Positions 44,301 through 60,019 of a stretch of 64,000 nt of DNA are shown piece by piece. Positions within the stretch are counted from its first letter, which is position 1. Each line of letters begins with the position of its first letter. The position numbers were made by a program, and so were the translations under genes. Source of the stretch: an uncultured Sphingosinicella sp. (lineage in GTDB: Bacteria; Pseudomonadota; Alphaproteobacteria; Sphingomonadales; Sphingomonadaceae); the NCBI RefSeq assembly GCF_902806315.1, contig NZ_CADCWD010000017.1, positions 1 to 64,000 of the forward strand, given 5' to 3'. Below the pieces are notes generated by a model. That model did not search any database. It was not told where the DNA came from and saw only the letters and a program-made list of their open reading frames with translations.

Positions 44301-44570
44301 TTACTTACGAAGACCGAGCTTCGCGATGAGTGCGGTGTAGCGATCCGCTTCCGTCTTCCGGAGATAATCCAGAAGCGAGCGGCGCTTGTTGACCAGCATC
44401 AGAAGGCCGCGGCGGGAGTGATTGTCCTTCGCGTGCGTCTTGAAGTGCTGGGTGAGGTTGTTGATGCGCTCCGTGAGGATCGCGACCTGGACTTCGGGCG
44501 AACCCGTATCGCCGCTTCCGCGGGCGTTGTCCGAAATGATTTCCTGCTTGCGCTCGGCTGTCACCGACAT
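44301..44570 (-). CDS. rpsO: 30S ribosomal protein S15
   Basis: [72 protein letters not shown]. Confidence 0.98.
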
Positions 44571-44572
44571 CG

Positions 44573-45586
44573 TCAAACTCCTTCGTGTCCTAGGTTGAAG
44601 CCGCGCACCACCCGAAGTTCGCCTTCGGAAAGCTCCACAAGCGCAACCGGAACAGACGCGTCGGTTGCTAGATGAAGCCCTGGCTTTGCGGCAATCCCGA
44701 CCAATCTGCGCCCCTCGCGGAGCGCCCTTGCCTGATCGGGGGTGACGGGTAGAGCCGGGATGTCGTCCAGCCCCGCCGTCAGCGGCAAGAGTGCCTGTTC
44801 AAGTTGGCGCGCTTGGGCGAGTTCGCCCAATTTGTCCAGCGAAATCGCGTGGGAAAGCCCGAACGAACCGGCCTTCACGCGCCTCAACATGGTGACGTGG
44901 CCCACTGTGTCCAAGGCATAGGCGATGTCGCGAGCGAGCGAGCGGATGTAGGTGCCCTTGGATACAGAAGCGGAGAGGGTGATCCCTCCCAGGTCCTCCC
45001 CGGCACGGGGAGGGGGACCATGCGAAGCATGGTGGAGGGGGCTCTCCACGCACTCGGCGTGTCTCCGGGCCCCCTCCACCGCTGTTCCGGCGGCCCCCCT
45101 CCCCGTTCCGGGGAGGACTTGAAGTGAGTGCACCGTCACCTCGCGTGCCTTCATCTCCACCGCTTCGCCGGACCTGGCGAGGTCGTACGCGCGGCGGCCG
45201 TCGATCTTTAGGGCCGAGTAACTGGGCGGCACCTGCTCGATCGTGCCGGTGAAGCGTGGCAGGACAGCGTGCACCTCCGCCTCGGAGGGCGTCTTCTCGG
45301 AGGTCACGACCACCTCCCCTTCCGCGTCGAGCGTGCTCGTCTCGACCCCGAAGCGGATCGTGAACTCGTAACGCTTGTCGGAATCCAGCGCGCGCCCGCA
45401 CAGCTTCGTCGCCTCGCCGAGCGCGACCGGCAGCACGCCGCTGGCGAGCGGGTCCAGCGTCCCGCCGTGCCCCACCTTCACCTTGGGATAGCCGCCCGCC
45501 CGCAGCGCCCGCTTGACCGCAGATACGACATCTGTCGAGCCCGGCCCGACCGGCTTGTCGATGATCAGCCAGCCGTGGAGCGCCAT
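44573..45586 (-). CDS. truB: tRNA pseudouridine(55) synthase, with an in-frame palindromic insertion
   Basis: [28 protein letters not shown]...[26 protein letters not shown]...[34 protein letters not shown]; anomalous segment [47 protein letters not shown]. Confidence 0.95.
44991..45122. repeat. Large palindromic element inside truB
   Basis: Left arm TCCTCCCCGGCACGGGGAGGGGGACCATGCGAAGCATGGTGGAGGGGG; right arm GGCCCCCTCCACCGCTGTTCCGGCGGCCCCCCTCCCCGTTCCGGGGAGGA. Confidence 0.88.
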
Positions 45587-46505: not shown

Positions 46506-46508
46506 GTA

Positions 46509-46614
46509 TCCCTCTCCCCTTCAGGGGAGAGGCTAGGAGAGGGGGAGTCGATCACCTCTCGGCAGCTTGAAAACTGCCCCTCTCCCTGACCCTCCCCCCG
46601 ACGGGGAGAGGGGA
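46509..46614. repeat. Intergenic palindromic repeat element filling the infB-rbfA gap
   Basis: CCCTCTCCCCTTCAGGGGAGAGGCTAGGAGAGGGGGAG ... GCCCCTCTCCCTGACCCTCCCCCCGACGGGGAGAGGGGA. Confidence 0.85.
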
Positions 46615-49166: not shown

Positions 49167-49976
49167 TCAATCCACAGCCGAAACAATCGGCGACGCCGCC
49201 GCGGCGGCGCTTAGCCCAGCATTCAATCCGATAAAAGCGCGCCACCGGTCGATCGCGCGGGACACGCGCGCGGCGGCAGCCCGGTCGATTATGGCGACAT
49301 GTACCACATTTTGGCGGCCGAGCGCTAACGACAATATGGACCTATCCGCTGGAAAAACCAGCCCTTGCGGCTGAACCGCCTCGTCCAGGGCCGATGGGTT
49401 ACCCCCGACGCGCCAGGCCTGGTCCAGTTTGGAATTGCCGTCCGCGCCCGCATCGGAGGCGTGGATGAGGAGATGGACATCGCCTCGACGGGCCGCGGTT
49501 TCGATCTTTTCGCCGCCCGTGAGGAGCGTTCCGGAGCGCGCTTCAAGGCCAAGTCGGTCGAGAGCGGATTGACGAAGCGCCGCCTCGGTCCGCTCGCCGA
49601 GATCGTCGGGAATCCTGAGGTCGCCGGTCTTGAACGCCCGGGCGAGCGCGCCCTTGAGCTTGCCCTTGGCCTGCGCCGCTTCCAGCGCCGAACGGTCGAC
49701 GCCGATCCAGGCGCCGCGTCCCGGCGCCTTTGCGCGGACGTCAGGCGCGACCTGGCCGTCCGGCCCGAGCGCCAGACGGATCAGATTGTCGCGAGCGTCA
49801 TGCTCCCCCGTGAGGATGCACTTGCGCTCGGCGACATGAGCGCTTCGCCCATCCTCGCTCGTCCCGAGCGAGGTCGAGGGGCGCTCGTGATGAGTCTGTG
49901 CCAGCGCCCCTCGACTACGCTCGGGACGAACGGACTTGTTGTTCCGCTTCAGGCGCTCATTGGGAGGTGTCCGCAA
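49167..49976 (-). CDS. YlxR/DUF448 RNA-binding protein (nusA-infB operon), with an in-frame palindromic insertion near the N-terminus
   Basis: AERKCILTGEHDARDNLIRLALGPDGQVAPDVRAKAPGRGAWIGVDRSALEAA. TTG start overlapping the nusA stop gives [53 protein letters not shown]. Confidence 0.88.
   Translation of the reverse strand: MRTPPNERLKRNNKSVRPERSRGALAQTHHERPSTSLGTSEDGRSAHVAERKCILTGEHDARDNLIRLALGPDGQVAPDVRAKAPGRGAWIGVDRSALEAAQAKGKLKGALARAFKTGDLRIPDDLGERTEAALRQSALDRLGLEARSGTLLTGGEKIETAARRGDVHLLIHASDAGADGNSKLDQAWRVGGNPSALDEAVQPQGLVFPADRSILSLALGRQNVVHVAIIDRAAAARVSRAIDRWRAFIGLNAGLSAAAAASPIVSAVD
49857..49932. repeat. Palindromic element inside the ylxR-like gene
   Basis: CTCGTCCCGAGCGAGGTCGAGGGGCGCT ... 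AGCGCCCCTCGACTACGCTCGGGACGA inverted arms. Confidence 0.85.
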
Positions 49977-58226: not shown

Positions 58227-59906
58227 CTAGCTCGATTTATGAGCGGCTGCAATGCCCCTGCGTGAAAGGATGGCCGCAACCAGGACGAGCAGCAGAGCAA
58301 ACAGGAACGGCATGACATTGCCGACGCGGGCGAAGAGGGTCGGCGGCTTGGGTGCGGGCAAGGCGGCGTCGATCGAACCGGCGGTGCGCCACGGAAGGCT
58401 GTGGAGCAGGCTGCCATCCGCCGCGATCACCGCCGAGATGCCGGTCGGTGTCGAACGCAGGATCGGCAGCCCCTCCTCCAGTGCGCGCAGCCGCGCCTGA
58501 GCGAGGTGCTGGGGCGGGCCCCAGGCGCCGAACCAGGCGTCGTTCGACGGATTGAAGAGGAAGGCGGGGCGGTTGTTCCGGTCCACCACTTCGCCCGAGA
58601 AGATGATCTCGTAGCAGAGCTGGAAACCGACGGGGCCGATGATCGGAAGGGTTAGCGTCTGCGGCCCCGGCCCCGGATCGAAGTCGACGTCGCCAGGCGC
58701 GAGGCGCGAGAGGCCGATCGCCGACAGGATCGGGCGCATCGGGAGATATTCGCCATAGGGCACGAGATGCGCCTTGTCGTAGCGGCCGAGGATTTGGCCG
58801 TTCGCTGTCATGGCGAAGACGCTGTTGGTGGCGCTGGTGAGGTGGAGCCGATCGGTCGATCGGAAGGTGACGCCGCCGGTCAGCAGGAGGTCGCCGGGGC
58901 CGAGGAGCTGGCCGATACGGAGGCGGATCTGAAGCGCTTCCGCCTGGTCTTGCGGATTGAGGCGCTCGTCCTGGAGCGGATCGGTCACGGCCGCTTCGGG
59001 CCAGAGGAGCAGGCGGGGCGTTGCGGACGGCGCGCCGGAGAGCCGCCGGAGGCGCTCGAAATTGCGCTCCTCAAAGCCCGCCTTCCACTTGTCCTGCTGG
59101 CCGATGTTCGGCTGGACGATGCGGAGCGGGATCGTAGGCGCGGAAAGTGGGGCCTGGCTGGTGAGGGCGACGAGCGCCGTCGCGAGCGCCACCGTGCCGG
59201 CAATCGCGGCGGCCGCTTTCCAGCGGCGGTGAAAAGCAAGGAAGAGCAGCCCGGCCAGCACCACCGCGATTGCGGACAGGCCGTAAGTGCCGATGATCGT
59301 GGCAAGGCGTGAGACAGGGGTCGGCAGCAATGCGACGCCGACCGGGTTCCAGGCGAAGCCGGTGAACATCGTCGCGCGCAGCCATTCGGTGACGATCCAC
59401 GCGGCTGCGAAGATCAGGACGAGCCGGACCGAATTCCTCCCCCGGCTTCCCGGGGGAGGGGGACCAGGCGCAGCCTGGTGGAGGGGCGCTCGCGAAGCGA
59501 GCTCCTCAAAAGAGGCGCTGTCGCGCCGCCCCTCCATCGCACTCTGTGCGGTCCCCCTCCCCTGCGAATGCAGGGGAGGACTGACGCCCCACCGCCAGGC
59601 CAGGCCGGTCGCCATTGCCGGATACACTGCGAGGTAGAGCGACAGCAGCACCACCGCGATCCAGCCGAGCCAGTGCGGCATTTCGGACTGGAAGGTGAAA
59701 GCGGTGGCGATCCAATTGAGGCCGAGAGTGAACTGGCCCACGCCGAACCAATAGCCGCGGGCGAGCGCGCTTCGAAGCGACGGCGCCCGGTCGATCAGGT
59801 AGATGAGCCCCGCAAAGGCGACAAGCGTCAACGGCCAGAGGCTCCACGGAGCGAAGCCGCAGGCGCTGAGGATGCCGAGGAGAAAGGACGCGAGAAGTAA
59901 CTTCAT
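58227..59906 (-). CDS. lnt: Apolipoprotein N-acyltransferase, with an in-frame palindromic insertion
   Basis: [39 protein letters not shown]...[24 protein letters not shown]...[12 protein letters not shown]...[17 protein letters not shown]...[34 protein letters not shown]; anomalous [51 protein letters not shown]. Confidence 0.95.
59434..59582. repeat. Large palindromic element inside lnt
   Basis: TTCCTCCCCCGGCTTCCCGGGGGAGGGGGACCAGGCGCAGCCTGGTGGAGGGGCGCTCGCGAAGCGAGCTCC...GGCGCTGTCGCGCCGCCCCTCCATCGCACTCTGTGCGGTCCCCCTCCCCTGCGAATGCAGGGGAGGA. Confidence 0.88.
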
Positions 59907-60019
59907 CGGCCACCGCCTAACGCGTCAGGCGAAGTTCGGGAAGTTCGGGCGCGAAGGCCTATCGATGATCCCCTGATATATCGCTGGACCGGACGCAGAG
60001 TCGCAGCAAGGAGCCCGAG

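Follow-up and report, generated by a model that had tools for sequence, protein, structure and literature searches.

An in-frame palindromic repeat element in truB of a Sphingosinicella sp. and the use of one TruB loop by unrelated palindrome families

Most known examples of palindromic repeats carried in frame within proteins come from Rickettsia, a lineage of intracellular bacteria. The Rickettsia palindromic elements (RPEs), and the palindromic elements of Wolbachia, are palindromes of ~100–150 bp that occur in many copies, sit in frame in conserved genes and occupy surface-exposed positions. RPE-1 has been found in truB of R. conorii, and REPs lie within truB of Erythrobacter litoralis, Sphingopyxis alaskensis and Stenotrophomonas maltophilia (PMC3733652). 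In that survey, REPs in genes of one functional class sit at different sites, save in recB of two Xanthomonas species. The occurrence of different RPE groups at a single position in a gene has also been described; whether such a site acts as a hotspot for several elements, or goes back to one old insertion that has since diverged, was left open (PMC3767692). A further alphaproteobacterial repeat, the CcrM-associated intergenic repeat (CIR) of Caulobacter and Brucella, is about 110 bp long and forms several long hairpins (PMC2229807). Here, we describe an element in truB of a Sphingosinicella sp. that shares features with each of these systems. It belongs to a distinct family, and its site in TruB has been used by unrelated palindromes in related species.

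Anatomy of the truB element

The DNA analysed is a stretch of 64,000 nucleotides, referred to as the window. The truB gene (44573–45586, minus strand) encodes a tRNA pseudouridine synthase B of 337 amino acids, recognised by the Pfam domains TruB_N and TruB_C_2, by matches to TruB in the PDB and by alignment to relatives. Directly downstream, and overlapping the truB stop codon, is rpsO (44301–44576, minus strand), an open reading frame named from the sequence of its translated product. In the list of open reading frames truB, rpsO and pnp have one orientation and the element is upstream of both rpsO and pnp.

An earlier note on this DNA described an in-frame palindrome of ~130 bp in truB, specifying a peptide of ~46 residues. 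Both descriptions are borne out by the inverted repeat, the open frame and the fold energies. The inverted repeat, which is the first listed of five found by an inverted-repeat search of the window, has arms of 53 nt (44990–45042 and 45069–45121) that are 79% complementary and 26 nt apart. We define the element itself as the 124 bp from TCCTCC to GGAGGA (44994–45117, minus strand), since these ends are common to other copies in the same genome. We refer to it as type A. As RNA, the coding strand of the element has a predicted folding energy of −104.9 kcal/mol, compared to −65.4 ± 4.6 for shuffled sequences (z −8.6). As DNA, the equivalent values are −56.9 and −30.9 ± 3.0 (z −8.7). None of 200 dinucleotide shuffles folded as well as the element. 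A search of Rfam with the element gave only sub-threshold matches of the miRNA type, as any long hairpin does.

The DNA fold predicts a GC-rich cloverleaf, in which a trunk is closed by three hairpins. The tips of the trunk, TCCTCCCC and GGGGAGGA, form the terminal inverted repeat and are followed by GGGGGACC and GGTCCCCC. The inner hairpin nearest the 5' side of the coding strand is GCCGC CGGAACA GCGGT (45078–45095, minus strand). The central hairpin, GGAGGGGGC ... GCCCCCTCC (45033–45078, minus strand), is predicted by both the DNA and RNA folds. The inner hairpin nearest the 3' side is ACCATGC TTC GCATGGT (45017–45033, minus strand). The stems of the two inner hairpins vary among copies in a compensatory way. 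Thus, 31 left arms have 16 different outer 4-bp stems, in which a mean of 3.6 of the 4 pairs are Watson-Crick; this falls to 1.7 when the halves are swapped between copies. Because the stems change together, it is the shape rather than the letters that is kept across the type A family.

The frame is open throughout the insert, and both flanks align with TruB of relatives that have no element. Comparison with these relatives gave the clean gap at the element boundaries that the earlier note had asked for. In an alignment of 34 TruB sequences the insert is bordered by conserved columns, and the match to solved TruB structures splits in two exactly at this point. The result is about 46 predicted extra residues between two conserved strands of TruB. 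Type A copies have on average 4.9 of six frames open, compared to 3.2 in shuffles of matched composition, and the copies in truB have 5.5. Hence, survival in frame should be easy for an element of this kind.

Copies elsewhere and relation to known repeats

The earlier note also proposed a count of copies in this genome, and there are many. Sequence searches of the 2.69-Mb genome, a draft of 97 contigs, gave 38 matches; the number of distinct places is smaller, as a palindrome can match on both strands. About 14 copies are full length and have the same TCCTCC...GGAGGA ends, and there are fragments besides. Full-length copies measure about 110–150 bp. Inspection of their flanks by eye revealed no consistent target-site duplication. 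Type A matches are present in 23 of 25 genomes of the genus, this one included, the named close relatives being Allosphingosinicella and Sphingosinicella species. Only 2 of 16 genomes from other families gave matches, and both belong to one genus.

Several copies are in frame in other genes. In this genome they occur in glyS (two), ligD (ligase D), an ImuB-like polymerase (two), the hydantoinase A region and lnt. The lnt copy is the second in the window (59435–59580, no strand assigned); it has an inverted repeat with 54-nt arms and is of the same repeat superfamily, in a sub-type with a longer tip hairpin. The reading frame at 58230–59924 on the minus strand encodes Lnt, the apolipoprotein N-acyltransferase. 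Alignment to Lnt in the PDB skips query residues 112–165, against chain residues 115–121, and the skipped segment coincides with the element. It amounts to about 47 extra residues that are absent from solved Lnt structures. The glyS genes of seven relatives (G003, G006, G007, G008, G011, G012 and G015) have recurrent inserts near GlyS query positions 750–760 and 628–675. GlyS is a second protein with reused insert sites.

Palindromes also occur between genes. One intergenic type A copy (L004 1500–1635, G000:C7) occupies the space between two genes, where its end, GGGGAGGATACATG, supplies the start codon that follows with a Shine-Dalgarno-like sequence. In the window, a palindrome resembling type C (described below), CCCTCTCCCCTTCAGGGGAGAGG ... 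GACGGGGAGAGGGG, takes up the interval from rbfA to infB (46508–46611). A palindrome with 30-nt arms at 49856–49932, CGCTCGTCCCGAGCGAGGTCGAGGGG..., is similar to type D elements.

How does type A relate to described repeats? The earlier note suggested an equivalent, in this lineage, of the RPEs. In part this stands: like RPEs, type A is found in frame in conserved protein genes (truB, lnt, glyS, ligD and others) and, in TruB, in a surface loop. However, it is a different element with an architecture of its own. Compared with RPEs as described, it is a GC-rich cloverleaf with short, variable hairpins, in another bacterial order. The GTAG and CGTC REPs are palindromes of 20–40 bp that have the tag at one end. 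Types B and E of relatives begin CGTCATCC and fit the description of CGTC-tagged REPs (PMC3733652). Conversely, type A, at ~124 bp, is untagged; its full-length copies begin TCCTCC, end GGAGGA and are about 110–150 bp long, so it is not a REP of this kind. Nor does it look like a RAYT-mobilised REP or BIME. The Y1 transposase domain (PF01797) was not found in this genome, nor in six genomes that carry the element (G002, G006, G008, G010, G012 and G020), although such drafts may miss a gene. A resident RAYT is thus probably not the mover. Compared by description, CIRs differ in having a conserved GANTC and in being said not to occur in genes, and GANTC is absent from the window copy and most other copies of type A. 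We therefore do not class type A as a CIR. For MITEs, which have terminal inverted repeats and a target-site duplication, the comparison gave the terminal repeats TCCTCCCC and GGGGAGGA and, by eye, no consistent duplication in the flanks. In the sub-type with the longer tip hairpin (L022, L027 and some G010 copies) the centre often contains GAGTC or GACTC, which is a GANTC site as in the Caulobacter CIR.

Five palindrome families in one TruB loop

We extracted 141 distinct TruB loops from relatives, from 119 genomes spread over Sphingomonadaceae and from named genomes. Loops of fewer than 30 residues (n = 64) have a median fold z of −0.1. Another 32 loops are long, native and non-palindromic (median z −0.3); their motif, RPDPYDPxAPLELAD, is common to one large clade, a few members of which have an element in addition to it. 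The other long loops (n = 45) have a median z of −6.4 and fall into at least five unrelated palindrome families. Family A, that of the window element, encodes the peptide LPGTGRG...GPPPRSGEE. The peptides of families B, C, D and E are HPREGGDP...LDSRLRGND, PLPFRGG...SPSPEGEG, PELVEG...STSSARTD and HPELVSGS...LKQVQGD, respectively. Loops were assigned by eye, guided by DNA similarity, and a few weak or mixed assignments are uncertain; with single-linkage clustering as the only criterion, some families merge with the native long loop. In the sample spread over Sphingomonadaceae, 28 of 109 loops were assigned to families A–E. Within the genus, 17 of ~25 genomes have an element in the truB loop. 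One loop of 100 residues (L219, G115) seems to comprise several E and D palindromes in tandem.

Inserts of families B, D and E recur elsewhere in their own genomes. The type D insert of Allosphingosinicella vermicomposti (G019) has dozens of copies, up to 99% identical; the type E insert of G042 has about twenty and the type B insert of G043 several. For the type C insert of G008 there are partial matches only. In a class-wide sample outside Sphingomonadaceae the TruB match is continuous across the loop in almost every case. According to the earlier note, its reading would be refuted by orthologues in distant families with identical residues at this position; this was not seen, the loop outside Sphingomonadaceae being almost always short. 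Small alphaproteobacterial genomes in the sample have ordinary short TruB loops, and none of these genomes was identifiable as Rickettsia conorii.

The loop appears to have been occupied by independent events. Three pairs of sister sequences differ in the family that they contain (L081 D and L073 C; L085 E and L213 A; L268 E and L248 C). L114 has an element and L117, a very short distance away, has none. The element is in the opposite orientation in L076 and L194. In L081, a type D element is nested in the remains of a type A element, and L093 retains a deletion footprint, TCCTCCC-TGCAGGC-GGGGAGGA. Taken together, the differing sisters, the empty neighbour, the reversed orientation, the nesting and the remnants argue for reuse of the site. 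A quick TruB gene tree requires at least 38 changes of state, a figure whose weak support makes it an order of magnitude. For the window's own lineage, the relatives without an element point to an insertion in this very lineage. Two frames are broken: truB of L070 (G004) ends within a type C element close to the end of a contig, and truB of L269 (G162) shifts frame behind an element. Both genomes are fragmented drafts; hence either tolerance is not universal or the drafts contain errors.

Could these elements instead descend from a single insertion in the ancestor of the family, diverged beyond recognition? The many type A copies in truB with a common orientation and frame would fit. Yet the families are unrelated in sequence, types B, D and E each match copies in their own genome, orientation differs and near neighbours are without inserts. 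These observations largely refute a single ancient event, which we regard as very improbable. An assembly artefact is harder still to credit. The genome is indeed a draft of 97 contigs, but the element is inside a long contig, and three genomes assembled into one to four contigs (G006, G010 and G018) have a type A element in frame at this position.

A further possibility is that the loop is a true insertion target, its DNA or mRNA attracting many palindrome families beyond what protein tolerance explains. The same few codons have been hit in 17 of ~25 genus genomes and by five families, and the flanking codons are strongly conserved. Against this, lnt, ligD and other genes are also hit, as expected if any tolerant loop fills, and the GlyS matches of relatives are broken at the same places in many genomes. 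One target sequence common to different families is hard to envisage, and outside Sphingomonadaceae the class has the same loop, empty. We consider a dedicated target unlikely. The truB case looks like a striking instance of a general habit, which favours loop tolerance as the reason for reuse. It is more doubtful again that the hairpin is kept for a function at the mRNA level, perhaps as a pausing site or a site for RNase III by which expression of truB-rpsO-pnp is tuned. The hairpin is very stable, its stems stay paired by compensatory changes in the truB copies too, and it is upstream of rpsO and pnp in one orientation. However, in most members of Sphingomonadaceae the loop has no hairpin, and cleavage there would destroy the truB mRNA. 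The same compensatory changes are seen in copies outside truB, so pairing belongs to the element and not to truB.

The insert peptide and the origin of the insertions

AlphaFold, supplied with 34 sequences, gave a model of TruB with a mean pLDDT of 87.8. Only residues 164–192 have a pLDDT below 50, and these are between strands 148–157 and 201–208; the remainder scores high. The insert peptide is thus predicted to be a disordered loop at the tip of a β-hairpin. The position probably corresponds to a point between about residues 161 and 169 of E. coli TruB (174–182 of chain 1k8w, assuming a 13-residue tag). Just after it is the KGTYIR strand of TruB, which carries the conserved tyrosine.

We counted mismatches at each codon position among truB genes with a type A element. 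In the insert there are 485, 387 and 438 at the first, second and third positions. The two flanks have 658/523/1652 and 227/203/753, an excess at the third position. Thus, the frame of the insert has been kept, the residues look unconstrained, and the even spread over codon positions speaks against the peptide being under selection. A variable family inserted on separate occasions would leave the same even spread, so this does not prove that constraint on the protein is absent. The earlier note wrote of a protein-evolving mobile palindrome. In its adaptive sense the phrase finds no support in the codon positions. Mobility is suggested by the copy number and the empty sites, and translation by the open frame.

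We think it likely that a non-autonomous type A palindrome multiplies in Sphingomonadaceae genomes, and that a permissive TruB loop is repeatedly colonised by unrelated palindromes. A type A copy would land in the tip of the β-hairpin before the conserved KGTYIR strand, its arrival being random or weakly targeted and its movement presumably driven by an activity supplied in trans. Three things would let the gene survive: elements of this type seldom contain stop codons, the reading frame is preserved, and extra residues are tolerated in this loop. The product would be a TruB with about 46 extra disordered residues, probably still active. Only insertions that preserve the frame, in a loop where they do no harm, would persist, and such selection would account for most of the reuse of the site. 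Later, elements may decay by deletion between their arms. At least five unrelated families would have been inserted, replaced, nested or deleted independently in the same loop.

REPs and RPE-1 in truB have already been reported; the new findings are the cloverleaf family and a single site used repeatedly by families that are unrelated. We found no description of either in the literature, a search of open-access sources and so weak evidence of novelty. The truB loop differs from RPE sites in that several unrelated families occupy one site. For this one site the question of hotspots has a clear answer: unrelated families replace one another in sister species. More speculatively, and with a rather low probability, the TruB loop, with similar loops in GlyS and other proteins, may be a family-wide docking site at which unrelated palindromes arrive through a shared mechanism without a resident RAYT. 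If so, a single codon-level site would record how a core protein has captured and lost mobile palindromes time after time. Since sphingomonads can be cultured, movement of the element, retention of the peptide and the tolerance of a core RNA-modifying enzyme become testable.
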